Positions 14,615-39,270 of a DNA stretch of 64,000 nucleotides are shown here, one piece after another. The position numbers were made by a program, and so were the translations under genes. The notes under the pieces were generated by a model. The model ran no database searches. It worked only from the letters and a program-made list of their open reading frames with translations, and was not told where the DNA came from. Within the stretch, counting starts at the first letter, position 1. Each line of letters starts with the position of its first letter. The DNA is taken from contig OX579639.1 of assembly GCA_951230915.1 (NCBI GenBank), positions 8,308,001-8,372,000 of the forward strand, given 5' to 3'. This DNA comes from Antitrichia curtipendula. Taxonomy: Eukaryota > Streptophyta > Bryopsida > Hypnales > Leucodontaceae.

Positions 14615-15560
14615 TTAATCCATTTTATAACCAAAAGAGGAAGATTGAGCGAAATAGAGCATGAAATTCAACATGGAAGTAAACAAGGATTTTCTTGATT
14701 TCACTTTTGAATTTCAAACCCTATTTTGTTCAATCTTCTTCATTCAATTACAAAATGGATTGTAAATAATTCCATTGCCAAAGTAGGATATATCTATAAT
14801 CTACACTTATAGCAATTGAGCATAATTATTATTGTTAAACCAAATTTTTTCTTTGCTAATTTTATTGGCAAGTCTAAGGGTTCTAATTTACTTTAGCATG
14901 CATTATTTGGACACTATGTAAATAAGTTATGAAATTTTTAAATTTTTTATATAGGTGTACCAAAAATTAACATTAGGCTCTCATATTCTAATTATATAAA
15001 TTTTATGTCATCAATATCTATGTCTTAGTGTTATATTTTGACCCACATGTTGGTGTCGCATTTTGAGTAGTGATTATGTACGACTCCAAATTTTTTCCCA
15101 AAATGATCATAAATTTGTCAAATGAAATCACTCTAATTACAATTTCAATTAGTCGGCACCTTGTGCTATTGCCATAGTTGAAATAAAAGTAGTTTTTTTA
15201 TTTTTCAATTAAAAAATAATTCAAAAATTCATAACTTGCACCATGAGTTGAAACAAATCCCATGCACCTCTCCTTGCATAGAGCATTCCAATAGTACCAA
15301 GAATGCAACTAAGAAACATGTGGTCTAAGAGATTTCAATGTACAAACAAATAAATCGAACAAATAGTCTAATTTAAGGTATGGATATAGATTAGTGTGCC
15401 TTATGTTGTTGCTACAACCAAAATAAAAGTAATTCATAAAATTTTAAAATTCAATAACCTTCCCTTCGCAAGTCCAACCGCCACAAAATGGGAAAAGCTC
15501 GTATGTGAGCGGTGAGCGGAGAGTGGAGAGCGGTGAGCAGAAAAAGAGAGCAGACTTGAT
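14615..15560. other. Spacer with a copy of the 245-bp repeat and a GTGAGCG-rich tract
   Basis: About 15240-15450 resembles the repeat that is tandem at 39446-40100 (shared words: ctccttg, ttaaggtat, agattagtgtgcc). It is followed at 15500-15540 by a purine-rich tract of GTGAGCG/GTGGAGAGCG words. The same tract occurs inverted next to the other copy of the repeat near 39385-39420. There is no gene. Confidence 0.5.
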
Positions 15561-16087
15561 AAATTTAAAGGTCCCTATTATCGTGGTTTATTTTTAATAA
15601 AATTCATAAAAATTTCATTTACTCTCTCTTCATGGTTTATTATAGAAATTAGGGTTGATGTCATGACATCATTTTTTTTAAAAATGACGTTATCATCAAT
15701 ATATCCATACCTTTTAGATATAAATCACAGCAAAAAATTCAGACTTTGAAAGCCATGTCATATTGAGGCATACGCACTGTATGTTGGCTTGACAAAATTT
15801 AAGGGCCCCTATTATTGTGGTTTATTTTTAATAAAGTTCATAAAAATTTCATTTACTCTCTCTTCATGGTTTATTATAGAAATTAGGGCTGATGTCATGA
15901 TTTCATTTTTTTTTAAATGACGTCATCATCAATACATCCATACCTTTTAGATATAAATCACAGCAAGAAAATTAGATTTTGAAAGCCATGTCATATTGAG
16001 GCATACTCACTGTATGTTGACTTGACAAAATTTAAGGGTCCCTATTATCGTGGTTTACTTTTAATAAAGTTCATAAAAATTTCATTT
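15561..16087. repeat. 234-bp tandem repeat, about 2.2 copies
   Basis: The phrase g(t/c)ccctatta recurs at 15571, 15805 and 16038, giving a period of 233-234 bases. Units 1 and 2 are about 95 percent alike by eye, including atttactctctcttcatgg and ccataccttttagatataaa. The third copy stops after some 50 bases. No coding potential is visible. Confidence 0.85.
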
Positions 16088-16735
16088 ATTCTTGTGAGAA
16101 TTTATAATATTTCTGGAACATTTCATGATTAGGGGTGTGTGGGACAGTAGCCGTAAGTGGTAAGAAAATCTGTAGATATTTTTCATAAAACGAATTGGGT
16201 AACCATGGACATTGGCAATAATAAAGCTTATATTCGTGGGGATTTGAGAGTGTTATAGCCGCTATATCTGTGGAGAATTTGTAGTTGTGAAGCCTATATT
16301 CATAGAAAAGGGGTAGTAATATAGACTATGGACATGGAGAATTATCAATAATAAAATTTATATCCATGAATGAAATATAAATTAGTTTGTTCATGCATAC
16401 GTTTAATTGTTGTCTACCATGTCTTTGCCATTTTTGTCCTACTTTGAAGGTTAATTTAGGATATTGTATCGGTTTAAAAGGAATGCCTTACCAATGAAGA
16501 CTACAAATAGTTGTCTTAGGTTAGCCTTAACCAAACGCATCATCATTTTAGCAATGACATGTAGATTGTAATGATCTGTTTAGTACAATTGAAAAACATT
16601 GCAAAAATAACGAAGGTAACAATCAGAAAGATGATGTAAGAGACAAGAAAGAAGACGATGTTGAGCTCAATTGTACTTGGATTTAATGAAACAAAATACA
16701 AATGAACTCGATTTTTGAAATAAAACAAAATATAA
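16088..16735. other. Spacer downstream of the ParB/MTase-like pseudogene
   Basis: AT-rich sequence containing repeated short phrases such as tatattcgtgg and tatccatg. It likely includes the 3' end region of the minus-strand pseudogene. No separate gene is seen. Confidence 0.4.
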
Positions 16736-19700
16736 CTAGTCCATGTCATCAGAACTATCCTTGCTACCAATTTCTTCTTGTGCTTCTACTTCTAGGTATT
16801 TCAAAACACTCTTGTGATAATTCTGGACTTCACGTTGAGATCGTGGAGAGCTTAGCGTCAACATCAATGCCATTGCTTGTTCAATGTAAATTGGAAGAGT
16901 AAATGAAGACGCTGTAGATGGTGGAAAGGGCCTCAATATAGAACATGTAGGAGAATTCTGGTGAACTCTGCAAAGTAAGATAAAATGAATGAAATTCCTA
17001 AAACTTGAAATGAAGTCCATATTAATGTGTACATAAAATAATAAAGTTAATAGTGAAACTTACTCACATAAAGGAATGCGGTTGTTCTTCTGTTTCTTCT
17101 GAGCCGCTTCTCCTTGCATATATCGAACGGCTTTCCGCTTCTCCAATATTAATACGGTGGGTGATTTTGGAATGAGTGGTGCCAAGAGAGATTGAAAAAT
17201 CTTTGAGTCTTCTTCAAACGCAACTATGTGTCGGCCAAGTGACTAACAAGCACGAATAACGGGTTCTCCTAAACAGAGGGCAATGACAAAAGATGCTTTA
17301 ATACTTAATGAAAGAAAAAATTGCAAATTGAAGGCAAAATGAATATGGAGTGAATGCGAACCTTTAGAAGCATTCCAATCGAAAATAATGTTGCCAATGG
17401 AGGTAAGCGACTCAATCATTGACTTCATCAAATCATCGGACTTCTCTCGAGGGCCACGCCATGGCGTTTCTCCACGCAAATGCTGAATTAAAGTGTTTAC
17501 TGGATTGAACAATATGTCCAGCTCCTCCAAGGAAGCGCTAATGCGGAAGCTGGAGACATCAATAGTGTCTTGTACAAATAATTGGATATAGAATCGCATG
17601 CCCTGAAATAAATTACAATTCCGATTAGTATGAGATTCACTAAATTTGAAAATATTGATACATTTCAAAGAAGCATATGGAATTTTATACAGCCACTAGA
17701 TAAAATTACCGTGGCAGAAGGATCTCGAGGTAAATCTAGAGGGAGCTCGTTCAAAGTCCATCAATCAATTAGTAACTTGAATTTGTACGTCATTGCATAG
17801 TCATCAATCTCCAATTGCAAATCTCAATTGTTAACATGAAACAGAAGCAATGCTGCATTGTCATGGAGATAATTCTCAGCAAAATCAAAAATGGTGTCCA
17901 CGTACTTCTCCGGCCTAACATTCCACAAAGAAATAGCTAAATTTAACACAGAGATCCCTGGAACAGATAAATTATCTGGAATGTCTGCAATGATAAGATC
18001 CAATCCAAAGTGTTTGCATTTCTCACTTGAGACTTGTCGTGATCGATTTGCACCAACCTGGAAAGCATATGAATTAATAAAGTTGGAGATATGTTATACT
18101 AAAACATCAACGGACATGAGTGATGCAATATAAATCATACCTTTGCTATGAATTCATGAAGAGAAGTCCAAGGCAGAGGTGGACCACCGGGTTGAGTGAG
18201 AGACTGCATAATGGAAAATAGAGAATAGTTTTGAATTAATGACTCTGAAGTAAAATTATGCAGTGCTGCAACGGATGATTTAGATTGTTGAAATTGATGT
18301 TACTTGCGTTGGTGAACCTCCATACGCGTGACTTTAAGAAGGCTGGATCCAGCAGCTTGAGAAGATTCTATGATTGATAATGAATTCCAAGCAATTTCAT
18401 CATCTCGAGTTATGTCAAGAGGATTTGGTAGCACAAAATCATTGACATCTGCCCTAGTTGCGAGGGGGATAGCAACAACCTCATCAATCTCGGCCTTCTT
18501 AGCCGCCTCCGCCTTCTGAGCTTCTTTAGTCCCGAACTTCACCTTCTGGGCCTTGGTCAGGCATTTCTTCTTGTTGGAAGTTTCGTCTTGTACAATAGTT
18601 GGTGTTAGGGATGATTGCTCTTTTTCAATGTCTTTGCCCTCTGGATTAGTTGAAATAGGGATAGACATAGAACCAGAAAGACTATTGTAAAGCTCTAATT
18701 CCTCATCCGGCACAAAATTGGAGTTGCACTCAAGGTACCATCTACTACCTTGCAGAAGAGGAACAGAAAAATTCTTCTTCTGAATATCTGTAAAAATACA
18801 AATATTGGAAGAAGATTGAATCTACGGAGATAGGAAAACAGGGCAGGAAAGTACTCCCAGGGCATTCTTCGCCATCAATTCCCTGACACTATACCTAAGT
18901 AAAGTAGAATACACTGTATCAATATATAAACAAATTTGAAATGTATGTAAATGAAACAACACCAAAGTCAATGAACCTGACATGTTCAGAGAGCTACAAA
19001 GAAAAGAATGTGAATGAATAAAACCTGTAGATTAGTCGTTGGATGAGATGGTCAACTTCCATTAAATCATCCTAATGTTATGTTTGATGTCCAAAAAATT
19101 TGACGTCCAGTTTTTGGACGTCAGAAAAAACACAGGTTTTTTCTAGTCGATGCTTGATCCCTTCAAAAATGGTGGCTTAACTTTAGGATGGATAAAAAGC
19201 ATGCAAGCTTTCTCCCACAAAGTCATACGCCATTTCTCAACATAGTCTGAAGGACGCCTAATCCCAGGTGAGGTGTTTCAAGCAACAGTAATTGCGCTTG
19301 ATTCATAGAGCTTTTCGAATTCAGCAATGAGTTGATCTTCTAGCTGCATAGTTCAAAAAAATATTAGAAAAAAATTGAAACGTTTGGATTACAAAGAAGC
19401 CACAACAAGAAAGATGATTCACTTGGGTCCAAAATGATGCATGGTTTAAGAACAAGTCAAATGTGTTGTCTTTGAAACGCGAACTTGAAAACCTGTAGAC
19501 AGATTGGATAAGCGTTGGAGAATTCTAGTAATGAAGCCATCTTGCTTTGAATCGTGGCTCAACAGCAGCGGTTGCAACCTTTTGCAACCTCTCGATTGTC
19601 ATTTCAGTTGTTTTAAAATGACTAAAATGATAGTTGATCTGCAAGAAACAAAATCCTAGTGAAAAATATTTTAAAAAAATTTGGAGGAATTGTGCAAGCA

Positions 19701-21185
19701 AACAAAAATTGTGCAAGCAAATCAGGAAAAAAAGAACAATAGTAAGAATTACCTCGTCAAAGAATCCTTCGCCGTGCTTCGGATTTTCAACAGAAAGATA
19801 CTTTTGAAAATCCTTGTTTTTTATTGACTTCACCATCGATGCTTCCGCAACATTCATAATCGTCACAACGCCTTCAACGGTTCTTTCTTTTACGGGCGTG
19901 ATTCTTTCGTATTTGATGGCAGCCTCATCAGCAATCCTAGCGAGGTCTTGCTGCAAAAGACAATATTTAGGGGTATGAAATATACATTTGATTTTATCAA
20001 ATTCTCAATCATACCTTGAACAAATATCAGCACAAAATCCACTGCTACACTATTCAAGATAGAAGTTGAGAGAACATACTCGATATAATAAATAAATAAA
20101 TACATCAATTGTTAATGGAAACCAAGCTGTACAAGACTTTCACACTTTCGCACAAATCTTGAATTCTGTGGAAGTCAGAAGGTCTTTGAAATCTTCAAGT
20201 TTAAGCCCTCTGTAATATTGAATGCGATGCAATTTTGCAAGGAGACTGATCTTGACATGGTTATTTTGCATCGACCTACGTATTCAACAAAGGAAGTTGT
20301 CAATTCAAAGTTAGAATAAAGTAAACATAAGAACAATAATTGCTACAAAAGAACACAAGGAGGGATTAAATTTTATACCAGTTTACGTCGTGCATGCATT
20401 TGAGCAGAATCGAGATATGACCTTTTGGATTGAGAACAATACTTGCAATTGAGTAATGCCAAGTTTTGTCATTAGGATGAACTTTGCTAATAAAGCGCCA
20501 CAAAGCATTCAATCTGTGGTTTCCATCCCACTCAAAAAAAAATTTCCAATGAAACTTGCATATTCTAGATTTGAACCCAGAAACTCTTCAAACTTTTCAT
20601 TGACCAAATGCCAATGAGAATCCCAAGTTGCTTTGATCTTAGGAGAGACATCACAAGTATTCTTAGAATCATCAAATAAAGATATATAAAATGATTGATC
20701 ACCATCAATGTATCCCCCTTCAAATCGATTTTAAAGGGCACATACATCTACCTCCTGAATGGGACGAACTCGTGGCAATGCAACCATCCTGCAAAGAGGA
20801 ACATAAAAAAGGTCATTAGTGACACGCATACTTTCCAGAATAATTACAAAATTTGATTTCTGATGAAGCCTTCTTGCTTTTTTTCCCTCAACTGCGTTGA
20901 CTAAACCACTTGGGCATTTTGGAGAATCATGCTCAGAATCGGATGAAGAAACCTCCTACATTTTAAATGTACAAATAAAAATTAACAATATTTGATAACA
21001 CCTTTAAAATCATTACAGAATGCAAAGATTTAATGCAAATAGTGAATGATTCAACAATTGAAAAAAGAAAAATGTGAAAATCAAAAGAATAACTGGAGAA
21101 CAAAACAAACTTGAATTTGTGGGTTATCGGTTACTTCTTTGTCATCATCAATTGTGTTGACTTCAACAAGAGGCTCCACATTCAT
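16736..21185 (-). pseudogene. ParB/Srx-like (DGNHR) plus class-beta DNA-methyltransferase-like protein, multi-exon, decayed
   Basis: I could trace about 13 exons on the minus strand with good GT-AG borders: 21111-21185, 20379-20955, 20146-20275, 19753-19950, 19423-19638, about 19050-19343, 18855-18894, about 18304-18779, 18141-18203, 17710-18057, 17362-17602, 17068-17295, 16736-16965. The second exon reads RVRPIQEVDV, FEGGYIDGD, then WDGNHRLNALWRF, the [D]G[NQ]HR signature of the ParB/sulfiredoxin fold. Later come LDLIIADIPDN (where methylases have DPPY), EKSDDLMKSMIESL, FDWNASK (where methylases have D-P-F-x-G-x-G) and SLGRHIVAFEEDSKIF. That order, DPPY-like before FxGxG-like, is class beta. 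It is broken by stops at 20731, 19525, 19278, 17824, 17761 and 17243 and a frameshift in the T9 run at 20534-20542. The catalytic DPPY itself reads DIPD, so activity is unlikely. The protein ends in an acidic tail, KDSSDDMD. The function of an intact relative is unknown. Confidence 0.7.
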
Positions 21186-21269
21186 CTAAATACAAATGCA
21201 CATAAATTTAAGACTTTCAATTCAACATTTTCAAAAACAAACAATCTTAGTATCACACCTAAGACAATA

Positions 21270-21780
21270 CCTTTGTCTGCGAAGGCTAATATCCAATAGT
21301 CTAGAAATCAATGTTCAATTATTTAATGAACCTCAATTACTCATCAAAACAACCTTCGTTCACGAAGGCTTATATCCAATAGTCAAAAAATCATTGTTCA
21401 ACTATTTAATGAACCTCAATTACCCCTCAAAAGAGCCTTTGTCCACAAAAGCTTAATTCCATTAGTCCAAAAATCAATGTTCAACTATTTAATGAACCAT
21501 AATTATCCATCAAAAGAGCCTTCATCCACAAAGGCTTCTCAGCACATATGAATGTTTAAAATCATACTATTAAACAACCCTTAGTTTAGTAGCATTACAA
21601 GAAGCTTTGTCCACAAAACCTTTTCACTAATATATGAATGTTTGAAGTCATACTAGTAAACCACCCTTAGTTTAGTAGCATTACAAGAGCCTTCGTCCAT
21701 GAAGCGTTTATTCATAAATAAAATACATGACCACACCTAGCAGATATTTATTCTTGGATGAGGATTCGTCTACGAAGGTT
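21270..21780. repeat. Array of 83-86-bp repeats with a CCTTYGTCCACRAAGGC palindrome
   Basis: The palindromic word, in variants such as CCTTTGTCTGCGAAGGC, starts at 21270, 21353, 21436, 21519, 21604 and 21690, with a last degenerate copy near 21766. Spacing is 83 for the first four, then 85-86. Between palindromes the units share aatgttcaactatttaatgaacc-like sequence in the first four and gtttagtagcattacaag in the later ones. Relatives of the palindrome recur near 23347 and 24105. It lies immediately 5' of the first mapped exon of the ParB/MTase-like gene. Confidence 0.85.
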
Positions 21781-21805
21781 CATTGCCAACAAGCAAAATT
21801 AATCC

Positions 21806-23094
21806 CACTAGAAGAAAAATGAGCCCGACACAATCCACTACTATGCAACTAGTGTCCTATACAACTATCCTAAAACTGTAATCCTCTCTATATGCACCAA
21901 ATTTGACAACTAGGTTGTTTAGTCGCAAAGTAGTCGTAGAATGAAGTGTAGGGTTACAAGATTGTAACAGAGTTGGCAATTAGAATTACTGTGAGGTATT
22001 CTAGATCCAATTTTCATCACAGTTGTCGATGTGGACAACTCTACGCATCATGGAGTCCACTGTGGTAAACCACAATTGCATATTATTTAAATTTGACCAC
22101 AATTCGACTAGAAAACGACTAGAAAACAACTAGTTTGCGACTAGAAACAACTATAATTTGACTAGAAAACGACTAGACTGCAACTAAAAAACAACTATAG
22201 TTTGACTAAAAAATAGCTAGATTGCAACTAGAAACAACTAGAATTTGTAAATGACAACTCTATTACACTCTTGTAACCCTACACTATTACAGAGTTTCTC
22301 TGTGACTAGATTGCAACTAGAGAATGACTAAAAAACAACTGGAATTTTCTAGAATTCTTTTTGTTGTTGTGTAGTCATTTTGTAGTTGTTTTCTAATTTG
22401 TTTTCTAATTTGTTTTCCAATTATTTGTCTTATAGCAATTGTCCCATATCAATTGTCAAAAGTACCATTAGGTTAGACATATAAGACTTGTAAGTTGTTG
22501 TATTCTTATGTAATGAACTCCCTTAGTAGAATTTTAAGATTTCTATTAGGTGTAGATTTCTACAGTTCGTAGATTTCTACAAATTGTAGGTTTCTACAAA
22601 CTGTAAAAATCCAAGAATTTTTAAATTACATAATTTCCTTAACCAATGAAATCTTTTAAATCTAAATATCTGAAATCTAAAATAGAATTTAGATTTGTAA
22701 TATCCAAAATCTACAAATCATTAAGATTAAAATTTTAAAATCTACAAATCTACAAGTCACAAACAAGTTACAAACAAGTCGCAAATGAGTTGCCAATAAG
22801 TCGCAATGGAGTCATAGATAAGTCGCAAACAAGTCGCACAACTCATCGATTGAATGACCGACGTCACGTGGCAGCGAGTACACATAAGCGACCATGTCAG
22901 AATAGGCCGTCGATGAAGTTCAAACGTGGCTGCTAGTTGAAAAATAGATTCACTTCATTTTGCGACTCTAATTTTCCATGTGACTTGTCCACTGCAACTA
23001 CGGACCTCTAGATTATCACCTGTCGCAAATTAGTTACACAATTCAAAAAGCAGTTGCTCTTTGCAGTCGTAGAACCCCTCATTTTCTTCTAGTG
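21806..23094. mobile_element. Second non-autonomous CACTA transposon
   Basis: The left end is CACTAGAAGAAAAATGAG (21806) and the right end is CTCATTTTCTTCTAGTG (ending 23094). Both sides carry the 3-bp duplication TCC (21803-21805 and 23095-23097). Subterminal arrays are striking: GACTAGAAAACAACTAG-type words repeat many times at 22100-22350, and AAGTCGCAA-type words at 22760-22860. Length is 1,289 bases with no transposase ORF. The ends differ from the CACTA element at 8813, so the two need different transposases or diverged subfamilies. Confidence 0.9.
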
Positions 23095-23784
23095 TCCTCG
23101 CTAATAATCTCATGTTGAATTTTAAGGTTCACGATACCAATGATGTGTTCTGTAGAGTCGTTTCTGTTGCCGTGGACGATTGAGACGATTCTGCAGTATC
23201 GCCAATATCACCAATTTCAGTGTACCTTACCCCTCCCGTTATGCCCTACTACAGACACACAACAATTTAGAATCTACATCCGCCTATAATAAGTATTTAC
23301 GAAATGTGTGACCACCATAGGGTACAAACTAATTGATCTACTAATGAGCCTTCGTCAGCAAAGCCTCAATTGTCATCGACGTCTCATGGCCGTCGGGAGC
23401 AGAGTTTTGGATAAAGGGAAAGGTTGACTGGTAAGGAAGTCAATTCAGGGGATGCAAAGCGGATGCCTGGAGCCAGGGACAAAAACTTTGAAGTCAATCC
23501 CATGCGACCTGAGGCAGGTGGTAATGATTGATAAGCCACAGGAAGTGTGCTAGTAAGGAGGGAACTGAATTCTAGCCAGGAAGTGTCATGCCCCACTCTC
23601 TGACCAGAAGCAATAAGACCACCATGAAGAAGAAAAAGAGCAAGCCCATTTGCACGAAACAATCTATAATGACCACACTTTGCTTAGGAAAAATATTCGC
23701 CAAGGAATTCGCATTTATGCCCAACGCCAATGGTCCCAGAAGGATTCCACCCTGAGAGCCATCCACAACAGAACCAAATCAGAC

Positions 23785-24299
23785 AGGTGCTTCGAGCGAG
23801 GCTCTCGTGGTCAAAAGGCGGCCCCCCAAGTTGAAGAAAAGGCGAACCCCCACAACCTGCCCAATTTGTCCCGACCAACCTCTCTGATTGACAATGGCTC
23901 TGATACAACTCCGTTGCACATCGAGGGAGGCCTTTCAACGGGGCTTTCCTGCATATCGAGTGCCATCTCTCTTGGGTGCGGCGCTACATGAACCACGATA
24001 ACAGGCTTCGACGAAGTTGGAATCACGACAGGTGCCACGACGAAGCTGGAATCATGTGCTTTGAGCTAGGCGCAAGTGAGCAAAAGGCGCCCCTCCAAAT
24101 AGCCTTTGTCGACGAAGCTTTCCGCAGGTGCTTCGAGCTGGGCTCTCGTGGTCAAAAGGCAGCCCCCTGAATTGAAGAAAAGGCGACCCCCCACGACCTG
24201 CCCGATCTGTCCCGACCAACCTCTCTGATCAACAATGGCTCCAATGCAACTCCGTTGCACACCGAGGGAGGCTTTGTCAACGAGGCTTCTTGCATACCG
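23785..24299. repeat. Direct duplication, 341-bp offset
   Basis: About 174 bases at 23785-23958 are repeated at 24126-24299 with roughly 90 percent identity by eye. Shared words include aggtgcttcgagc, ggctctcgtggtcaaaagg, cctctctgat and aactccgttgcac. In copy 1 the minus strand reads TATCAGAGCC, which resembles the initiator-tRNA-Met primer site of plant LTR retrotransposons, but no LTR or reverse transcriptase is visible. The block is markedly more GC-rich than its surroundings. Origin unresolved. Confidence 0.6.
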
Positions 24300-27126
24300 A
24301 CGTGGTAATGACCACCAGCCTCTACTTGACTAAACAATGTGTGCAAGGGAAGCTAGCAAAACAGATCAATAACCATGAAGTTCAACTGTTTTCTACTCAC
24401 CTCCTTCACTAGAGTCGATTTGGCCATGTTGCCCAGATCAACAACGGTTCTTCCTCCCCTTGTAACTTGCCACATTCACAGAAGATCCCACAACGATTCA
24501 GAAATTTAGAAAACAAATATGTGTCAAACGCTCAGAAAACCCCCATGCGGTGAGGCGGTTTGGACAACAACAACGAACATTGTTTCCACTGTAACAGCTA
24601 CAAGGCGCCCGAGGGTTATAAACCACATGGGGGCTTTGGGATTGTGTGTAGAGTTTTGTTCTTGACAAACAAAAGAGAGTATGATAGTTAGAAGGATTGA
24701 GGACAATGAGCTGGAATTTCAGAAGGCACATTCAAGAGTGTATTAGAGCGATTTGAGCCACAAGGGTGCAACAGCTAATAGTAAGGAACCTATGGTAGGT
24801 CACCGCCAATACTTCAAGAGTCTCCAAAAAGATGTTCACTGGTGACAATTTTGTACGGAGAGGGAGCTCAAGCGAACGTCTACAAAGCTCAAGTTGAATT
24901 TGTGAAGAACCATTTTTATTCTAGTCATAATCTCAATAAATGGCATGGATATTCCTGGCAAAACAAGCTTGTAGGCAGGCGGCAAAAAACTCAAAAAAGA
25001 AAAGCCTCATAAATTGGATCCCTAAACCGTCACCTCATAAATCACCCCATGGTCCATCCCAGTGCGCTCTCCTCAAATGTGAGAAATGTGGATGATGTAT
25101 TATTAATTCTTCGTTCAGGCTAAGAGAAACTCAAGATTAGGACGTCCAATTTGCACTTAAATCCTCGATAGGCATTTGCTAATTAAATAATAATTGGAAT
25201 TCGTTGTTTGAACTTATATATAAATGCAAAGTTTTGAATCATTTTGTTTTGATTAATGAGATGAAATTTGAAAAGACTATTAATGTGGTTTGGAATCAAG
25301 GTAGTTAACCCATTTAGTCCCAAATTCTCTTTTCTATCAATAAATATTAAAGGTAGCCATTTATAATGCAAAAATGACAAGCAAAAAATAAAAATTTGAT
25401 TATTAGATTTCTTATTAAAAATTTTATGTAGTTTATCAACTGATGTGAAGGTTAAATATTTTAGAAAAAAAAAATGCGTGTTTTAAATTGTATCTTATGT
25501 CTGTTTGATTAATATATTTAGGTACTTAAATTTAATTAATAATGTAAATGGAATTGTCTTCTTATTTGATATGGTCATAATAAAAGTTTGGATTGTTGAA
25601 GTACATATTCATTCTTATTTTGCATGTGTTATTTAGCAACATAAATCTACAAATCTTGTACATGTCTGTGATTTGAGATTTGCATCTTTTAGGTTGAAAA
25701 AGTAATAGAATATAGCAACAAGGACTATCTTTTATGTGCACTAATTTTAATAACATTTTGAAATATAACGGAAATAGTTTTAATTGCCCCACAAATGCGT
25801 ACTATTCAAAGAGCATGGGAGATCATGTATTTTGGAAACACGAACTAAAAATTGGTATTCTAGCATTATTTGTATGTGGACAACTTGGAGCCATGATTTT
25901 ATTGCAAATTAGACCCCGTGATTCTAATAAAACTAATTTTTATACAAAGAAATGCCCAAGAGATTGAAATAAAAATCTATATATTCTTTTATTTCATTGT
26001 AGTGGCTTGACAAGTTATCAAGGCGACAATTCAAAAGTCTATTGTATGCCTTTCGAGGTAGACCTTTATTCTGACCAAATTAAAAAAGAAACTACCACGT
26101 AGAAACAAACAAGGTGGTTTTATTGAGCAGCTTGCTTCTAGCGCAGGTCCCATTTGTATCTTGTACTTCATTAAAGAAGCACCTGATAATACATGGGCAC
26201 ACTTACTTTCGTTGGCCTCCCACAACCAAAATCTAGTATTTTTATACGGACAACTTCAATCTCCTTGAGTCAATCATATAGATATAAAAAAGCTACTAAT
26301 TTTGAAATAACATCAATATTTGAACAACTTCTTGAGATCATTTTTTTCCCATTTAATTCCCTATGTTCTTGTTTAAAGTAGCCAATATATGTTGTAACCA
26401 CTATACAAGAACAAACGCAAGGAGGATTGCTTAGTCACTAGAAGATAATCAACTACTAACTTAATAACTAACACAAATAGTAAACTATACAATTAGGTGG
26501 GTTTCATGGGTATCATTATCTAAATGATGTGGTGTTGAATATGAATATCTAAGTGGGATATTGGGTTTGGTATCTGGGCGAAAGATATTGGAGAAGTCCT
26601 GAACTAAGTCATTGGTATCGGGTATTGGTTTAGCCGTCGGGTTTACCGTGTCTTAGATATAATCTAAAATGGCCGATGATGGTGGATGCCAAATATGCCA
26701 TCATAATTATCTACAACGTTGTTTCAATAGAACAAGTCTAACTGGACATACATGTAACTAATACCAAACCGTTGTATGCAATACCGCCCATAAAAAATAT
26801 CCACTTCTGATACATATTACAAAACCATCAAGAATTAAAGATGTTGGGGTTAAATGCTTACTTTTAGGCTTGAAATCATTGTTGCCGTTGTTTCTAGAGA
26901 TGACGCCAATACCGCTGAGGATGGAGTAGATTCCTCCACATCTTCTGATATTGCATCACTCCGTCTATCTTATTCCGCATATATAAGTTTTATAATTAAA
27001 TCTATGTAAAGGAACAATGAAGATGAACCGAGCTAGGTCAATACTACAAGCTTACTTAAACTCTAGCAAAGACATTTCAAACCTAAACGTAAACATAAAA
27101 ATGAATTGCTCTATAAAATGACTTAC
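24300..27126. other. Spacer or intron with possible small minus-strand exons
   Basis: Most of this is AT-rich and featureless. About 25195-25330 is a diverged piece of the foldback-element arm. On the minus strand, about 26861-26945 encodes SEDVEESTPSSAVLASS followed by a good donor GTAAGC, and about 23157-23250 (in the preceding region) encodes a similar Ser/Thr-rich, acidic stretch (EIGDIGDTAESSQSSTATET). Both could be 5' exons of the ParB/MTase-like gene. No other gene is supported. Confidence 0.35.
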
Positions 27127-27390
27127 AATTGATACTCCTTCATTTTCCAATACGTCATGATGTTCACCGTCACTATCACGTTGTCTTAAGTTATACGACA
27201 ACATCCTTGCAGTATTAGAAATATCAACATCGATAATGTTTGCCTTTCTTCTTCCCATTCTAACCCTCTGCAACTGTTTACCACTTGAAAACAAAATGCC
27301 TCGCCTCCTTCGCTTCTTTTTCCTCTCAGTTAGTAGAACTAGAGAATCCTTCGTAGCTTTCCCAATTGTATCAAATGCTAATTCCATCAA
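27127..27390 (-). CDS. Candidate 5' exon with basic nuclear-localisation-like stretch
   Basis: An 88-codon open exon ends at a consensus donor (GTAAGT, plus 27121-27126). It reads MMELAFDTIGKATKDS, then TERKKKRRRRGILF, a typical monopartite nuclear localisation signal, then an acidic tail (RDSDGEHHDVLENEGVSI). It is on the same strand as the ParB/MTase-like pseudogene and may be its first coding exon across a long, transposon-filled 5' region. The direct splice to the next candidate exon at 26861-26945 does not keep phase as I read it, so either an exon is missing or these are separate remnants. I do not recognise a family from this exon alone. Confidence 0.35.
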
Positions 27391-28397
27391 CCGAGGCGTA
27401 CAAATGAAGTTGAAAACCCGTCTACTTCACTTAACAAAACACATTTACAAGAGGCTACTGAATAGAAGGTAATACCAACACAATGTTGCTACATCAATTC
27501 GAATACAAGGCTACAAATTTTTAATAGATATATGCTTGTCAACCGTTGTCGTTTACTTCATACAGTGGTCACGTTTCATTAATAACTAAACTATTTATGA
27601 GATATATGACACGCCATTTAAACACTATTTTTGTCACGTACCACAATGATCATCATGTCAGTTTAATTTTCAAAACTCACCTACTTCTGTTGATAATTAT
27701 AGGGTGTTCCAATAAACGTGCCTGCTAAAATCCACCTCAAATCCTATGAGAATTTTACACTATACACGGTTATTTTTTTGGACATTTGCAACTTGTATTA
27801 TGTCAGTTACACACATGCCAACTTATAAAAGTAAATGAGGAGTTCCACATAATTGATCCAATGTTGATCCAAGCACCTTTTATGGGAAAATCCTGCTCAA
27901 GGGGGAACATGTTCACACTTTGTGTCAAAATTGTGTGACCATCCGTCCATAATTCAATGTACACGAACCTAGCTGAGTATCTGATTGTCCCCTCAACTGA
28001 CAATTTTGCTTTAGGGCTTCTTTGCATCAGCTTTCTGTTCTCTTTGATCAACCCCAGTAGCCTTCTTATCCTTCTTTCGTTGCATTCATGAGCATGCTCT
28101 CTCTTTTTGAGTCAAAAAAAATTGCTTTCACTTTCTTATGCTTTGTTTACATTTGTTCTACTGTAACACTCAAAAACTAGTCCGACCCTATCTCCTCATT
28201 TGAAACATAACACAAACGTGGCAACACTTTCCTCAAGTTCTACCCCTCCAGCAGGTATTAGGGTTGCTATTCATTCAAACACCATTCACATGGGAACAAC
28301 GGTTCCCATAAATTCGGCCGCCTCTTATCATGAAGTATCATACTAGTAACCTAGTTAATAAATTTCTAATATCTTTGAGGTATCATTGTAATTTGCT
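27391..28397. other. Spacer, no gene seen
   Basis: AT-rich sequence with short frames that lack family character. It ends at the putative left TTAA end of the piggyBac-like element. Confidence 0.4.
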
Positions 28398-29305
28398 TTA
28401 ACCCCTAACTTTCTGGGCGACCATATATGGTCGCACAAAATTTTTGGCTCGTTTGTGTGCGGGCAGTTAAATTCATTTGACCGGTCTGAAATTTTTTACG
28501 GGCAGTACTGAAAGGTAACCATTGGAAATTTTAATTTTTAAGTGAAAAAGGTGAATATATGAATTATTTTCAAGGCTTCAAAGGTGTATAGGTCTTATTA
28601 GTAGGAGGGGGCAACTTTGGAGACCAATAAGAATGTGCCATTCTTCAAGTGGGCAAAGGAAAAAAAAAGTGGGGAGGCAATGGGCCTGGATTTTGGTAGG
28701 ATGGGCCCAACATTGGTGCAAACGGTTCCTAGTTTGGCATCATAAAAGCAAGAAACTAAACCCATTGAAAACCGTCCATTTGTACAACCTCCTAAATGAC
28801 AAAAAAAGGACACTGTAGCCACTGTGGCAGGTGGTAACGGCCAACTCATTACACACAACCACCTCTACAACTTTCACAACACCAAGATATGAAAATAACG
28901 GTAACCACAACAATTTGAGCTCACAGAATCCCTCAGAAAATTTAAGCCAATACAACGTTGCAAAGTATTTTGAACTAACAATCAATGAAAGATTGCATAA
29001 AATATACATACATTGTAAAGAATGACAGCTACTAGCAAAAATTTCAAAAAATAACATTTATAAGTTGTAGGAATTCAAATCTGAATTCACAAGTCTCCAA
29101 GTGCATACAAGCTTCTCACAATGGAAGAAATTCCAAGCCCTTCAACCTCTTTTTGCTATTGTGGAGGACCAATAGACATAGTTAGAGATTGGACAAGGCA
29201 ACAAGGTGCAAGTGCACACCAAGAAAGAGTTATCCTAGCAACTCTAGATTCACACTATCTTTCTAAGCTTCCTAAGCCAAAGAAGTGAAGAGAGATTGGT
29301 AGTAC

Positions 29306-29317
29306 TATAAATAGAGG
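29306..29317 (+). promoter_or_regulatory. TATA box, likely promoter of the piggyBac-like element
   Basis: CTATAAATAGAGG is a consensus plant TATA box. Transcription would start about 30 bases downstream, near 29338, followed by ORFs 29319-29606 and 29937-31127 on the same strand. The ORF ending at 29606 contains a good splice donor, GTAAGTAAGG, at 29599. Confidence 0.5.
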
Positions 29318-29936
29318 TTTGAGAGCAAGGTACTATCAACAAGTAGCACACATTTTGGAGTGGAAAGAGAGACATGTGGATGGATTTTCAAAAATAGTGA
29401 GAGACACCTTGAGGAAGTTGGTATGGCCAGATCATGGAGAAGCAGAAGGAGTTATGACAAGAGACAATATTGATAGCACTAGAGAGAAGGGATGCAACCA
29501 TGTTACCACTCCAATGGGGCAATCTGCAGTGGCCAAGGACAACAAGCTTAACAAGGGTGACAACCAAGCTGAGGTTCAAGAGAAGTACATCACAAACGGT
29601 AAGTAAGGCAAAAGTGACTTACAAGAAGGGTTGGTCGGAGGGAAGAAAGCGTGTTGGGGAAAGAAGGAAACTTCTACTGAAGAAAGGACACATTGGAGTA
29701 GTGGAGATACAACTATAGTCGTAGTACCAGAGGAGGGTCGATCTGCAGCCACAGTACCAGAGGAGGACAGTTTTCAACGACAGTTTGCTGGTGGACAGAG
29801 CATCGACGCTGCCATCAACAGTGGAAGAGGCAGCAAATCCAACTACAATAGCGAAAGAAGCAGCTGCAATAAAATAGCAGCGATGGTCACAGCTGCACCA
29901 ACAAACGCCCCTAAATAGAAGAGGAAAGTAGCCCAT

Positions 29937-31127
29937 ATGGATCCACAAAGAAGCCTAGAAGTGCAAGAGGACGTGTACTTCCAAAGTGGTTTACATGAAA
30001 CTAGATTGAGAGAAGTGGCAATGGAAGAACATGAAGTAGCATTGAGGGTTCCAAGTTATGTTTTGAATGAAAGAGAGCAATCAACAAAAGAAGAAGAAGA
30101 AGAAGAAGAAGAAGACTTAGAATGGGTCCTAGGTGTAGTGTTGAAGGTCTACATAGAAGAGCATTCGAATGCTAGAATGTATCAAGTTCTATTTGGAAAT
30201 GGGGTTACAAAATGCATTCCTAGTGGTTTTACAGAACAAATCTTGAGGCATGAACAAACTGAAACCCAACTAGAACACTCCAATGATCCATTGCACAGCA
30301 TTTCAAGGAAAGACGAGTCTGAGGATGAAGAGGGCAGCAGGGACGGTGATGACTGCTGGCCTGCAGATGAAGAAAATGACCTTGAAAACCAAGTTGCTGA
30401 ATGGGAAGCTTGGAAGCTCCGACCTACTACACGAGCAAGAACCAAATGCATGAGTACAGTGGTTACAAAAGAAGCAAGCAAAGCAAAAAGCAAGCAAAAT
30501 AAATCAAGAGGAAGAAAGACAGAACAAGAACAATCACTTGGCGCTGGAGTGAAGTCAATTGTGGGAGGGAGAGCATTTGAAGGCGACAATGTTGACATGA
30601 GGAAGAAGAAGGCAAAGACAAACGCGGCAGGCAAGGCGGGGGTGGCAACAGAGGAAAATTTGAATTCGATGATTTCTGCGGGCAGGAGCGGATGCGGAAC
30701 CAAGGGCGGCAGTGAAAAATCGTTGGGCAACGGGAGGGAGACTGCAACGGGCTCTGTCAACAGTACTATGTTAGATCACACGAAATCAAATGAGAATCCA
30801 AAGCGTGGGAGCAAGCAGTGGCATGCAAGGAGAAAGAACTTGGCAGTCAAGGCAACAAGTCCTAGGATAGGACAGTTGGAAGGGCGTGATGGGGTGGTTG
30901 CGGTGGCTGGAGAGGGTGGGGTGGCTAAGGAAGATGCGGTGGTTGGAGACAGGGAGTGCTCCAGGGATGGAGCAGGGAAGAAAGGCACAGTCAATCCAAA
31001 GGAAGAGGACATGTGTTGGGGTCTCCAAGTACGTTTTTTTGTTTTTTTATATATTTATTTTTATTTGAGACCTTATCATAGTCATAGTCATAGTGTGACA
31101 AAGATTTGTTATTTATTAATTCATTAA
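29937..31127 (+). CDS. 396-aa charged protein, possible N-terminal part of the piggyBac-like transposase
   Basis: A long open frame starts at 29937. After an acidic run (seven Glu, encoded by a GAA repeat, near residues 51-60) it reads LEWVLGVVLKVYIEEHSNAR, then MYQVLFGNGVTKCIPS, an alternating hydrophobic pattern like a small Tudor/chromo-type barrel that precedes the DDE domain in some plant and oomycete piggyBac proteins. The remainder is acidic (about residues 120-160) and then basic, Lys/Arg/Gly-rich, and probably disordered. The last 30 residues, after a possible donor GTACGT at 31029, are AT-rich and hydrophobic and look like read-through into an intron. An upstream exon around 29340-29598 may belong to it. 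The function is inferred from position only. Confidence 0.5.
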   Translation: MDPQRSLEVQEDVYFQSGLHETRLREVAMEEHEVALRVPSYVLNEREQSTKEEEEEEEEDLEWVLGVVLKVYIEEHSNARMYQVLFGNGVTKCIPSGFTEQILRHEQTETQLEHSNDPLHSISRKDESEDEEGSRDGDDCWPADEENDLENQVAEWEAWKLRPTTRARTKCMSTVVTKEASKAKSKQNKSRGRKTEQEQSLGAGVKSIVGGRAFEGDNVDMRKKKAKTNAAGKAGVATEENLNSMISAGRSGCGTKGGSEKSLGNGRETATGSVNSTMLDHTKSNENPKRGSKQWHARRKNLAVKATSPRIGQLEGRDGVVAVAGEGGVAKEDAVVGDRECSRDGAGKKGTVNPKEEDMCWGLQVRFFVFLYIYFYLRPYHSHSHSVTKICYLLIH

Positions 31128-31607
31128 TGTCAAAATCAAATTTCAATAAAATATTAAGAGACAAATAATAAAATATGTGAAAAACAATTAAGAACTTGGT
31201 CGAAAACTTTACTAATAAAGGACCAATGTTGGAAGGATTTTAAATTTGCAACCAACATATTTAGAATGTCAAGAGTTATGTTCACAAATATCAAAATGCT
31301 TTTAATAGATTTTCTTTGCATATAAATTGCATATTCACTACTCATTCACTATTAAATCATCTTTTAAAATCTAAATCTAATGCTTTTTCTTCCTTATTAA
31401 TAATGTTGTTAACAAATAAAAAAACCACTATAGTACCTTGAACCGTTTCAAAGCGCATTTGTGCATACATCATTTTCTTGAAAGGACATGATGAATTGAA
31501 AAATAATTACAAGACTACAAAATCGAAATCACCATTTATTCATATTAGTGTAAATGATACACTTTGGCTAAAAAAATAATTATTTTGTCTTTGCAAAGTC
31601 AAAAACC

Positions 31608-33325
31608 ATGTCACACCATGGTATTAGAATTTTTGAAATACCATGTCATTTATTGGTTTTGTATGTGGAAAATTTGATATGTGGGACAGAGAATGAAGTT
31701 GTGGGTGGAAATGTAAATGGGAAGAAAATGGGCAAGCAAAAATCACCGGGCTTGAAGGAAGTTTACAATGAGGAGTCATGGCAAAAGACATTTTCTATGT
31801 TTGATCCAGCACCAGTTTCATTTAGTGGTCCCACCTCGGGATTACCAAACCCTTCGCAAAGAATGCCCACTTTATATGGCTTGTTCCATAAATTTTGAAC
31901 TCCAAAAACTTTACGCAAGATATGTGCTAAGACTAATAGGTATGCCTCTGAGATAAATCCACAGTCAAGATGTACACCTAAGAAGTTACAGGGCGGGGAG
32001 ACATGGTTTGCGCTATATCCACCGGAGTTGAGGGCACTTTTGCTATATCTTTATATATAGGAATCAAAACTGAGTCAAATGTGCAATGCTATTGGAAGAA
32101 ATCATGTGAGTTTTTGTGGTGCCCGGTGATATCATCTATTATGACCCAAGACCGTTATGAGCACATTATATGGTGTTTACATGTGCATAATGATCATGGA
32201 GCAACTACGGACCAATCAAATGTAGAATTTGACAAATTGATGAAATTGAGATGGCTTCTAGATGAGATTAGAGATCAGTGCAAAGATATGTGGAATTTGG
32301 GGGACAAGGTGACAATTGATGAGATGATGATACAATACAAGGGTAAATATTTTGCCATTCGCCAATATATGCCCAAAAAAAAAAAAAAATGGGGGATTAA
32401 AGTTTGGTGCCTTACCGATTCAGAAGCGAGGGATGTGTGGACATTTGAAGTTTATTGTGGAGCCAACAAGGGAGTTCTTGGGATTAAAGGTTCCAAGAAG
32501 GGTGAGGCTATGCAAGGAGCAAATGTAGTACATGGACTATTGTCCGGATTAGAGAATAGAGGGCATATAGTTATCATGGATAATTTCTTTTCTTCCGTAC
32601 CTTTATTTATGGACCTTTTGAATAAAGGCACCTATGCAATGGGCACGGTTAGGGTAAATCACAATGGTCTTTCCAAGGCTTTGGCTACCAAATCCCTTTA
32701 CACTAAATGTACTCAAGGGCATTTGGAATGGAGAATGCATATATCCAAGCAACTTAGTGCTATAGTGTGGGTTGACAAAAAACTGGTTCTTTTTATGTCT
32801 ATGGTTGCACCACCAATCCATAAGGCCGACCAAGAATGTCCGGTAGTTCAACGATGAGTGGGACATTTGCGGAAACCGATTGACACATCACCTATTCATT
32901 TTCAATACACTACGTTCATGCGAGGAGTAGATGTTGCCGACCAATTGAGAGGTCAATATTCTTGCCAAGTTCGCACTCAAAAGTGGTGGCATAGACTTCT
33001 TTTCTTCCTCTTGGACACCACGGTGGTGAACATGTGGAAACTTCATTCCCAACAATGTTTGATGTTGGGAATAAAAGGTTTGAACCATAAATCTTTTCAA
33101 CTCCGCCTCGCAAAGGTTTTAGCATCACATCATCTTCGATCTCGTAGATGTACTTCACGTTACAATCGACATGAAGCACTTTTTCACATGCCAATGTGGA
33201 GTGATCTTCGTAAAATTTGTGTCCAATGCCACATACGGTGCCAAACCTATTGCCCATGTTGTCTCGGGCACCACATCCATATTGGAGATTGTTGGAAGGT
33301 GGTGCACCTTCCAATTTTGAATTGA
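31608..33325 (+). pseudogene. piggyBac-type DDE transposase (DDE_Tnp_1_7), broken
   Basis: Reading frames in order show the family hallmarks: AKTNRYASEINPQ near 31925, WFALYPPELRALLLYLYI near 32000-32057, then IDEMMIQYKGK with the first catalytic Asp at 32318, IVIMDNFFSS with the second at 32579, and MRGVDVADQLRGQYS with the third at 32930. A Cys/His-rich C-terminus follows (CVQCHIRC, YCPCC, HHIHIGDC), like the C-terminal zinc domain of piggyBac proteins. It is disabled by an in-frame TGA at 31896-31898, a frameshift near 32050-32060 and a TGA at 32855-32857. Both TGA codons fall where Trp is plausible, so G-to-A or C-to-T decay fits. All three catalytic Asp codons survive. An A14 tract at 32374-32387 encodes PKKKKKW. 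Confidence 0.88.
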
Positions 33326-34832
33326 AGGTATTTTTCCTCCATTTTCTATCTTTGTATTTGCTACTCTTCAATACCTAGAAGTAGTCACATGAATCACTAA
33401 AATCTATGTTCATTTGCAAAAGTTATAAGGGATTGAAATTGGTTTGGAACTTTCTTGTTGTGTATTGGTGTTTGTGGAAGGTGGCATAAATTTTTATTTT
33501 TAATTATTATATTTTGTGAGGGCAAAAGTTTAGTTTTTAATTTTTAATTATGCTTCAATATGTATAAGGGGAAAAATAAACACTAAAAAACAAGTTCATA
33601 TGCAAAAGTTATAAAACTTTGAAGATCGACTTGATTTTCAAGAGTCCCTGGAGTGAGAAGAGAGCTGCTGCGATTTCAAGGCCTCTTTAGGAATAGTGGA
33701 TTCAATTATTTTTGGTAGTATCTCAGTTACTTGGAAAAGGTGCGTCATAAGTATATCTAATGGGTCCAACAAATTTCATGCAAAAATATTAATTTTTGTA
33801 GAAGTTATGGTCATTTGACTAAATTGTGGATTTTATGGCAGCACCTTTTATGGCGGGCCAGGAGCGGTGGGTACAATCATGGGAACAACCTTCTTGGATT
33901 AGAAGGTACCTAGTGCCTTTTGAGGTGGCTCCCATTATTTAGACAAAGAGTTAGGACATTGCTCCTGGCTTTGAGCAATTTTACTTTGTTTTGAAATCTA
34001 AAAAGTTTTACTTATCCATTTCCTTTGAAAATGGTCCTATTTGAAAGAGTAAAGTGTCTTCTTGATTATCACCGTTGAAAATTTAAACATGAAAGTGCTG
34101 ATTTGGAGTTATTTGCAATTTCTACTAACCAAGTGTTAAAAAAAATTGCATTTCAACAATAGCAAGGTAGATTGTGTAATGAGTTTGGTAGCTTCTTCTT
34201 TTGAATTTTGTTTTTTTGAACATGCATTTTTGTTAGCTAATACAATTTCAAGTTGTTCATGTCACCTCCTATCTCCAAAAAGATTTACATGCAATTTTCT
34301 CAAACATTGTGGGGTGGGGCAACATACTAAAAATAGAATATTTACTTTTCTCTTGTTATAATCTCACAAGTCCTATACAATTTCAAGCTCAAAATTAATA
34401 GACATACTAATAAGCAAGCTCTCTAAACATTTATACGGTTAGATTTTGAAATAAAAAATAATTTGCTTCATTGGAAAATATTAGAAACCCATGCTCTTTT
34501 TTCTTAGCAAAATCACACTTGGAAGAGCTTAGGCACTTAGGGGTTAAGTGTGTCTTTGCAGTATCTTCCTCTAACAATGTCTTGGTTAATCTGAACCATT
34601 CAAATTCTAGAATTATATTTGCTTTACCAATGTACAAAACTCCCCTACTTGTTTTACAACCAGTCTGGAAAAAAATATCCAAAGTTTCAGAGATATGGAG
34701 AGGTGCCGTTAGATGTCTTGCATTCCAAACTTTAATTCAAATTCTCCAAATATTCATGCATGTGCCATCTTGCACAACTACTTTCTCTTAACTCAAATCT
34801 GTCAGAATTGACGCAAAGTCAGTATTTGGAGG

Positions 34833-37800
34833 TTGAGTTTGAAACATATTAGAGCCATTGCCTTTCTTTGGATCACAATCTCTCATTTCTCTCCTTCCCT
34901 CATCATCGCTTCTTCTTCTCAAGCTCAAGCACCCAGTCTTATTTTCCTTCGTGCCAATGGTGTTGGCGTTCTTCTTACTTGTCGTTTAGATAGTGACGGC
35001 CTCGCATCTGTTATTTCTTTGTTGTTAAGTCTTAGATTCTCTTTCTTGTAGGACAATATCTACATTGAGGAGGACATTTACGACGAGGTAACCTCAGAAC
35101 TTACTCATACTATTGCTATGCAAAGCAATGTAGACATGGAATCGCAGAGAGTTTAGAAACTTGAACCAGGGCAGTATAGAGTGTATGGACTCCTAGATTC
35201 TACAATCTCTGCCTCAAATCATACTCTCACTCCTCGTCAGTCATTTTCATGTAGCATGCACATTCCGCTTCCGATTGGAGTTAGGGTTAAAGTAGAACTT
35301 GGGACGGGGAGCGTAGTAATCCTCTTATCGGATGATGAGTCCTCCTCTCAAACAAATTGTCCACCTAAGTCTTTTACCCCAACGTCCTGCCTTCCTCGGA
35401 ATACCACTCCCATGTTGTGCCCACCTAGAAACAACACTCCGACATCTTGTCTTCCAACATCTCGTACTCCAGTGTCTTACCTTCCAAATCAAACTACGGG
35501 CTGTGTTGTACTTAGTGTTCTTTCTTTCTTGAGGCAGTTGCGTTCCCGTCCCGGTTGCAAGAACCTTTCGAAACTGTTAGACTATGATAGGATCCGTCAT
35601 GAGAAAGTAGAGTATCTTCTCCATCAATTCAATGGCGATGTCATATTTGAGCTTCCTCTTGCACAACCATTAGCATCATCTAGTCAAGCAAAGTTCATAT
35701 ATGGCATGGATAAAAGATACGATGGGCACGTACGGACAAAGACCATCACAGCAAATATCATCAATGATAACGGACTACACTTTTAGATTTCTAAATGTGT
35801 CGGCCATCTTTGATGCAACAACCCTAACTGTGGATACCTACAGCAAGACCATTGAACGGCACCGTTTAATGTGACAGAATTTGATGGAATTACTTTTCAT
35901 TCATTCATTCCAGGTCAGGTACCACCCGTGGGCTCCACGTTAGTTTGCAAAAATGTGTCGCATGCCTCCTTCCTGTCTTGCGGAATGTCCGGCTATAGTT
36001 TATTATGTTTCAAGTAAGCATAATATCACACGTGCATATATTCATTTAGGGAGTTACAACCATCCCATTAAAATTGGGGATTATTGTGAGGTTAAGGAGC
36101 GGATCAATTCATTGATTGGTGAGCAAGTTCAGAGAACTCCTCTTGCCACTAAAAGTTCCATAGTTTTAGAAGCCAGTAAAGATCTTGTGGGAGAATTCTT
36201 GTTGCGAGAAGAGAACGATCCTAAAAAACTTCTAAGTTTTGAGGAATTAGTTCCGATGTTAGATAAGTGCAAGGATATGGGATCTCCAAGCATCCAAAAC
36301 AAGGTGGTTTTGTTTTGATATCTAAAGAGATATGGTGTATTAGATAGCATAACAAAGCTAAGGGGAGTAAGTACTTAGGCTTTTGTGCAAAAAAACATGT
36401 TCCCAGGTCAAGGTGAGGACTCAGAGAAAGTATTTGTCTTCAAAATGTCAAAAGTTGGACCGGGTTCAGATGTTGATTTGATGGAACGCATGCAGCCAAG
36501 TGGTGACTTGAAAAATGCTTGGATGATGTTTGATCACGTTAAACGTGTGAAACAGTGGACGACCATGGCATGTCATGTGTATGACACCACCTACTATCGG
36601 GTCATGAGTATTGCATGTTGTGACATGCAACTTGAAGATACCAAAGCGCAGATGGTGTTCTAGAAGAACCTTAATGCTGTGATGGCTTGACATGGGCTTC
36701 CTTTGCCATAGTTCAAAGGTTTTATGGCCGTTAGTGCTCATGCTAATTGGAATGTTGTGCAAATTTTGTATGGTAGCGGAAACAAGGATGAAGCGATGGT
36801 GGACAAGGAGCGTACATGCTTGTTTCATTGGACTCAATCGAGGGTGAAACACATAGACAAATACATCGCCGAAAGACCTTTACGTGATCAACACAAGGCG
36901 TTATGTCAACAGTATAGGAAGGCCAACACAATGGAAGAGACTGAGAAATTATTTCAAACTATTCGAGCTCGGTGGGCATCGTTTGGAGCTGTTTCAGCTT
37001 ACATCTTGACCTTTGGTTAGCGTTTCGGCACTTTCGTTATCGACAATGGGGTGGATTTATGACTCAGGTACTGCATCATTCTGTAATTATTTCATTTCAA
37101 TTATTGTGATCACAAGCCTCGTACTAAATATAATGATCGTATACAGAGCATGTTCAAGGATGAACTCACGGGAATGCCATCTTGTAATCTTGCGGAATCT
37201 ATCCATAACAAGTGGAAGCAAGCCTCGGGTAATAACGATGGAGACTTGTACGTTGCAACAATAGATGATTACATCCGGGCTTTCCTTCAAGTGGTTAACT
37301 ACTACCAATTTTTGAAGGGTAACATTGGGGGGACGGGTCCTACCAAAGAAGAGTTGAAACTCCGTATTGCCAAATGAAAAGCTAGGAAGACTAACAATCT
37401 ACGTGTTCTAGATGATCCCATGATGGGATTGCCAGGTGCAGACGAATTTTGTACGCGCGATTTGCATATGCAAGGCGAGGAGGTTTTTGGCACACACAAG
37501 CGTAAGGCCAAGTTACGACTAGGTGCCGACAATGAATCACATCGACCAGATAGAATGAATTTTTCACATCCTCGATATCTATTTAGGTGGCGTGGCCCTT
37601 CTACAAATCCTCCGCCCATCATCGACGAAGACGATGGTGTTCCCAGTGACGTGGTTGCATCACCATAGCTATTGCCTCTAATTGTAGATGCAACTCTGGT
37701 AAGTAGGGTTGGAATTTTCCCTGTAATAGCACTAGAAGAGACCCATGCCATTCTGACCAAGTGGCATATTGCTCGATTGCCGGCCAACTCGGCCAAGTCT

Positions 37801-38640: not shown

Positions 38641-39036
38641 TTCAACAAAATGGTAGTTGCATACCCTCTCAGTTCCAAGGGTGTATTTAACCTTGTTCAC
38701 CTCCATTTTAGTACGAAGTATTTTTAGGAGTGTACGATCTCGTTTTTGACCTGAAACCTTGACCATGTCCAGTCGCCCATTTCATTACAAAATATTTTTT
38801 GAAATGTACTAAATCGTTTCCGAGAGGATACTTGAACATGACCATTGGCCCTTTTCAATATGAACTATGTTTAGAAATGTACACGAGAGGGTACTTTTCC
38901 TTTAAATTTTAGTATCTCAATCAACTATTGTATCTCTAGTATCCACATATTTATTCAATTTCAATAAAATTATTTGTTTATTTTTTTGCAAGCATCAGTG
39001 TTACATCAATATCGAGCACTAAATCTAAACATCAAT
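38641..39036. other. Spacer after the MULE-like pseudogene
   Basis: Contains two or three degenerate repeats of a phrase like agtacgaagtattttt/aagtgtac at 38710-38880. No gene is seen. Confidence 0.35.
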
Positions 39037-39270
39037 CTATTCCCCCTTCTTATGTTTTTTTCTAGGTGGCACGAGGCCACTACGTGGACACTTTAAAGGA
39101 GGTCCTTCATAGTTTTTGGTAATGTGCTTTGATTCTAGAATACGCATGGCAAGGTATGGGCATGAGTAGTTCCTCTTCCTCTCTTTTAATGGTATCATTG
39201 ACCAGTCAATGTCCCGGTGAGGAGGTATGGCCCTATGATAATCCGTGAGTCCCACGATTTTAGGACCCAA
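39037..39270 (-). pseudogene. C-terminal fragment of an unidentified protein with a degenerate zinc knuckle
   Basis: A 77-codon frame ends at 39037 in a basic tail, LVPPRKKHKKGE. Before it, CPYLAMRILESKHITKNY followed by EGPPLKCPRSG resembles a CCHC knuckle of the form C-x2-C-x4-H-x4-C in which Cys and Gly residues have been lost. The part IPPHRDIDWSMIPLKERKRN is well formed and not low complexity. It probably is the last exon of a transposon-derived ORF. I cannot name the family. It converges with the MULE-like pseudogene, which may be coincidence. Confidence 0.3.

Follow-up and report, generated by a model that had tools for sequence, protein, structure and literature searches.

A transposon gene joining ParB/Srx-like and class-beta methyltransferase-like domains in the moss Antitrichia curtipendula

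The gene and its copies in the genome

The window analyzed here, a stretch of 64,000 nucleotides from the moss Antitrichia curtipendula (contig OX579639.1, positions 8,308,001 to 8,372,000), harbors on its minus strand a multi-exon gene that runs from a start codon at 21185 to a stop codon at 16738-16736. The gene combines a predicted ParB/Srx-like domain with a class-beta methyltransferase-like domain and resides within a DNA transposon. The original prediction, made from the sequence alone, had described such a fusion in a decayed copy, possibly belonging to a transposon-borne base-modification system; each of its peptides was found on the minus strand where it had been placed, and the start and stop codons agree with the bounds it gave. 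The exon bounds (Table 1) were set by GT-AG signals and by an unbroken paralogue, L088, and are putative. The window copy is indeed dead, its reading frame being interrupted by about seven stops, by a frameshift within a run of T directly before WDGNHR, and by an 80-bp insertion. Elsewhere in the genome, the inserted sequence gives 33 match rows, several of them as close inverted pairs, and it resembles a small mobile repeat.

A DNA search of the genome (400 Mb, 303 contigs) with the window sequence revealed dispersed copies whose main pieces are 78-92% identical. An exon-by-exon alignment comprised twelve copies, that of the window among them, of which L089 is missing its first exons and L099 its first half. 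The suggestion that intact relatives may exist was confirmed by L088, whose exons are all free of stops and together encode a 1033-aa protein. Ten of its 11 introns have GT-AG ends; the remaining one shows a CAA acceptor, yet stays open if retained. Codon changes relative to L088 were counted over ten exons (E1 and E7 excluded), and third positions differ most in all ten comparisons. Among single changes, synonymous ones outnumber nonsynonymous ones in L090 (79 versus 58), whereas the reverse holds for the other nine copies.

Table 1. Features of the transposon copy and its gene (window positions)
Feature	Positions	Strand	Basis
Whole transposon copy, ~23.9 kb including nested insertions	15489..39437	-, sense of the ParB-methyltransferase-like gene	Terminal inverted repeats, flanking 9-bp repeats, homology to other copies
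Target site duplication TTTTGTGGC, gene-3' side	15480..15488	.	9-bp direct repeat
Target site duplication TTTTGTGGC, gene-5' side	39438..39446	.	9-bp direct repeat
Terminal inverted repeat, gene-5' side; ~50 bp, imperfect; inner bound approximate	39384..39437	-	Local alignment of both ends
Terminal inverted repeat, gene-3' side; inner bound approximate	15489..15545	-	Local alignment of both ends
Exon 1, start codon	21111..21185	-	Exon alignment of copies
Exon with ParB/Srx-like domain (WDGNHRLNALWRF); 1 stop, 1 frameshift	20379..20955	-	Exon alignment, divergent relatives, model
Exon E4, next after the ParB exon	20146..20275	-	Exon alignment of copies
Exon E5	19753..19950	-	Exon alignment of copies
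Exon E6; 1 stop; 3' bound taken from unbroken paralogue	19423..19638	-	
Exon E7; 1 stop and 80-bp repeat insertion at 19068-19147	19025..19343	-	
Exon E8; lysine/alanine-rich linker; 1 stop; 5' bound taken from unbroken paralogue	18317..18894	-	
Exon E9	18141..18203	-	Exon alignment of copies
Exon E10; motif IV region (LDLIIADIPDN) and strands after it; 2 stops	17710..18057	-	
Exon E11; PWRGPREK to IIFDWNASK, reaching S-adenosylmethionine (SAM) motif I	17362..17602	-	
Exon E12; SLGRHIVAFEED with SAM-site acid; 1 stop	17064..17268	-	
Exon E13; contains stop codon	16736..16967	-	
Decayed reading frames opposite to the gene, possibly transposase	35157..38514	+	Weak SWIM match, below cut-off
Nested piggyBac-type transposase (DDE_Tnp_1_7), foreign to the element	31982..33325	+	

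The transposon carrying the gene

Homology among the copies extends past the gene on both sides. Two of them, X91 (13.8 kb) and X92 (12.2 kb), are about 95-96% alike, except for a 1.5-kb stretch present in X91 only, and both terminate in inverted repeats flanked by 9-bp direct repeats (that of X92 can also be read as 10 bp). The window element shares these ends, which lie at 39437 and 15489, with TTTTGTGGC on both sides, so that the gene lies within an element of about 24 kb bordered by inverted repeats and 9-bp duplications, and the earlier transposon-borne reading holds. No inverted repeats close around the gene itself were found; the element ends lie farther out. Target duplications are present in three of the four elements in which both ends were read, X94 being the exception.

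The window element is longer than these relatives partly because of the nested piggyBac insertion and partly because it retained the decayed frames on the opposite strand, of which X91 and X92 keep just the end and L094 and L095 keep more. In the sequence of a related copy, the end of these frames gives a weak match to the SWIM zinc finger (E 0.018, below cut-off), and a Pfam search of the decayed frames gave no match to a Mutator-like element (MULE) transposase. Target duplications of 9 bp are given for MuDR elements (PMC3627910). Together with the SWIM-like end, they fit a Mutator-like element as the most likely class; since Pfam detected no MULE transposase, we infer this class rather than read it from the enzyme.

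Several further observations concern the element. Tandem repeats of 233 and 83 bp flank the gene inside it (15553-16092 and 21282-21537), and pieces of the BLAST alignments suggest that their number varies between copies. L094 and L095 represent one element copy on contigs C1 and C2, 99-100% identical and with a shared flank, hence a recent segmental duplication. A relative of the opposite-strand frames, 32% identical, is located at L090:8525-9208 beside another element copy. The setting of the window is eukaryotic, with the piggyBac-type transposase, threonyl-tRNA synthetase exons (49714-51363), and a G+C-rich region (54229-58030) holding a resistance-type gene, in which a TIR-domain frame (54229-55833) scores above and an NB-ARC-like frame (56222-58030) below the cut-off.

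Domain architecture and the altered catalytic motif

The N-terminal domain is predicted to adopt the ParB/Srx fold. Matches to the modeled structure of this part come nearly all from the ParB/Srx superfamily, and the model places a strand (115-117) and a helix (121-134) around the DGNHR-like motif. A profile of the family, used unmasked, matches the strand, DGNHR, the helix, and the next strand, a result reached by none of 150 shuffles. A structure model built from two sequences failed (pLDDT 34). For ParBc (PF02195), one of the two Pfam families against which the original prediction proposed to match the gene, neither L088 nor eight relatives gave a profile match, and the gene is therefore not filed as a member of that family. 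Other candidates were rejected. A LAGLIDADG endonuclease (Pfam E 0.011, below cut-off) overlaps the ParB strands, weakens to E 0.18 in one of eight relatives, and is not supported by the fold search; Dermatopontin (two of eight members, best 0.024), KduI (one of eight, 0.016), and the PDB sequence matches of the ParB part to hemocyanin (E 0.82) and a ribosomal protein (E 0.023) were taken as chance. Scanning bacterial (61 stretches) and viral (6) contigs for DGNHRLNA returned true ParB proteins and many chance matches, none of these stretches having, in the same frame, the methyltransferase-type motif that was sought.

The second proposed Pfam family, PF01555 (N6_N4_Mtase), was recovered, above the cut-off by L088 (E 1.1e-6, 29.2 bits against 26.7), over profile positions 144-217 of 221, i.e. 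the last third, and below it by the window copy (E 0.025, 15 bits). Methyltransferase families also head the PHROGs results of the window copy (E 0.0016, 0.0025, and 0.047), and L088 matches four such families at 4e-6 to 5.4e-5 and a fifth at 0.018. Aligned to eight phage proteins by hhalign, the window copy scores 31.9, which none of 300 shuffles equals; taken separately, the motif IV half was reached by 4 of 200 shuffles and the C-terminal half by none of 200. The C-terminal half of L007, one of the phage rows, is unrelated; against the seven remaining rows, the score of the window copy by itself drops to 27.8 (P 0.0053). For a profile built from seven family members, the alignment to the eight phage proteins has a probability of 92.9% over 209 columns and that to the seven rows 94.7% over 198 columns, the latter reached by none of 150 column shuffles. 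Class-beta enzymes are permuted, with motif IV preceding X-I-II. The motif IV region of the moss gene is likewise followed by the SAM motifs, and its colinear alignment to phage class-beta enzymes upholds the motif order described earlier. L088, the family matches, and the model thus support the presence of both domains in one gene.

Among phages, a search for relatives found the methyltransferase region of phage Sitara (41% over 56 residues, E 2e-3), the second match in that collection and the plasmid matches being at chance level (E 6 in both cases); no encoded close relatives were found in the genome_contigs or viral_contigs collections. Within the moss genome, 137 of 2468 candidates for the methyltransferase part were scored and gave at least 182 matches at the exon level, which is not a gene count. 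Many are without stops, the divergent ones are 34-53% identical, and they are distributed over contigs C1-C10 and C218. A ParB-like exon lies upstream in all six divergent loci fetched, with 32-44% identity to L088, and carries DGNHR in five of them and NGNHR in L119; the fusion therefore predates the subfamily of the window. L106 has the ParB-like exon too, with a stop in E7, and L114, L115, L116, and L118 contain stops in the ParB-like or the next exon. Just upstream of the divergent relative in L106, another reading frame ends in the same direction (L106:400-707). On contig C1 (~41.53-42.12 Mb), there is a large tandem array of nine methyltransferase-like exon matches, nearly identical to one another and 35% identical to the query; four of its intervals measure ~48.03 kb.

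In known amino-methyltransferases, the motif [DNS]PP[YFW] holds the flipped base. Intact paralogues with DPPY had been anticipated, but the motif occurs in none of the 19 readable loci; the survey covered 20 of the loci in the genome, the twentieth, L099, being frameshifted at that place. Instead, D-x-P-E followed by N or G is present in 11 of the 20, including L088 and divergent loci, and the sequence is DLKSG in L112 and L113. The seven aligned family members conserve both the TG of the SAM site, as SG in L112, and its acid pair. As the change in motif IV is common to divergent members, it does not stem from decay of the window copy. The missing [DNS]PP[YFW] and the widespread D-x-P-E make it doubtful, on sequence grounds, that the protein actively modifies bases as known enzymes of this type do; of the base-modification system proposed earlier, the transposon-borne part stands, whereas the base modification itself is in question.

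Interpretation and relation to known systems

The reading preferred here, which we consider about evenly balanced between right and wrong, sees in the locus a dead copy of an accessory gene belonging to a DNA transposon with terminal inverted repeats and 9-bp duplications, most likely of the Mutator/MULE type, and in its product a DNA-binding accessory factor. In the unbroken protein of about 1030 residues, an N-terminal ParB/Srx-fold domain would be followed by a middle region, a basic linker, and, at the C-terminus, an amino-methyltransferase fold of class beta. The ParB-fold part may hold a nucleotide or DNA and load or clamp the protein on DNA, while the methyltransferase part may bind SAM and nucleic acid, with base methylation lost or changed. 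Such a protein could serve the element by binding its ends, aiding its movement, or protecting it from silencing.

The main competing reading takes the protein for a working methyltransferase whose motif IV is non-canonical (D-x-P-E then G/N) and which marks element DNA or an RNA once the ParB-fold domain has loaded it on the target. It draws support from the recurrence of D-x-P-E in divergent loci and from the retained SAM-site residues, but the absence of the base-holding motif throughout the readable loci and the DLKSG of L112 and L113 speak against it, and it is regarded as unlikely. In a bolder form of this idea, a large family of eukaryotic DNA transposons would code for a methyltransferase that is loaded by ParB, has a new catalytic motif, and marks element DNA/RNA against host silencing. 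If true, this would add a novel type of enzyme that modifies nucleic acids and a novel eukaryotic role for ParB; we consider it quite improbable.

The gene might also be a host gene captured by a transposon only in the window's subfamily, the other matches being an ordinary plant gene family. Element status (inverted repeats and duplications) was established for this subfamily only, many divergent exon matches are stop-free, and the C1 array would suit a gene family; yet the spread over eleven contigs and the several broken divergent loci, as expected of mobile elements, render this explanation rather unlikely. That the ParB part is a look-alike, with DGNHR occurring in an unrelated fold, appears very unlikely: no sequence library finds ParB and the signal vanishes once the motif is masked, but the superfamily matches of the model and the unmasked profile argue against it.

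A gene of this kind has partial counterparts. The pairing of ParB-N with DNA methylases in phages, mentioned in the original prediction, was verified in seven phage proteins (L003-L006, L008, L009, L012). Like the moss gene, they unite in a single protein a ParB domain and, after it, a class-beta methyltransferase, and the methyltransferase halves are those aligned over 198 columns. In contrast, the phage proteins have DPPY and GHGR or GHQR and comprise 415-501 aa in one frame, whereas the moss transposon gene has DGNHR, many exons, and ~1030 aa, and lacks DPPY. A methyltransferase fold retained despite a changed catalytic motif is also seen in inactive methyltransferases of the METTL14 type, which belong to the MT-A70 family, act as partner of an RNA enzyme, and are not transposon-borne. 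Fusions of ParB with methylases in phages are already known, and the same applies to element-borne methyltransferases in retrotransposons and viral mariners.

A literature search of titles and abstract beginnings returned no description of such a plant gene, and the term 'ParB' does not occur in PMC9477723. The nearest published cases found are methyltransferases of retrotransposons and mariner elements (PMC5890265, PMC3627910). DIRS retrotransposons carry Dam-like N6-adenine methylases and thus also place a methyltransferase on a eukaryotic mobile element, but they are retrotransposons, and the passages on them mention no ParB (PMC5890265). Dinoflagellate and charophyte retrotransposons carry DNMT genes, likewise multi-copy and element-borne, which encode C5-cytosine enzymes (PMC5890265). 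Certain mariner elements, described for viruses, bear genes for an endonuclease and a methyltransferase and are DNA transposons with transposase and methyltransferase genes, as the moss element may be; they belong to another superfamily, and 'ParB' is absent from the paper (PMC3627910). Compared with these systems, it would be new to find a ParB fold and a class-beta methyltransferase-like domain combined in a gene of a multi-copy eukaryotic DNA transposon, with the catalytic motif changed but the methyltransferase fold retained. Such a gene raises the questions of which role a methyltransferase fold plays after replacement of its motif and whether transposons use ParB-type proteins, and suggests that plant annotations of methylases or ParB proteins may in fact refer to genes of transposons.
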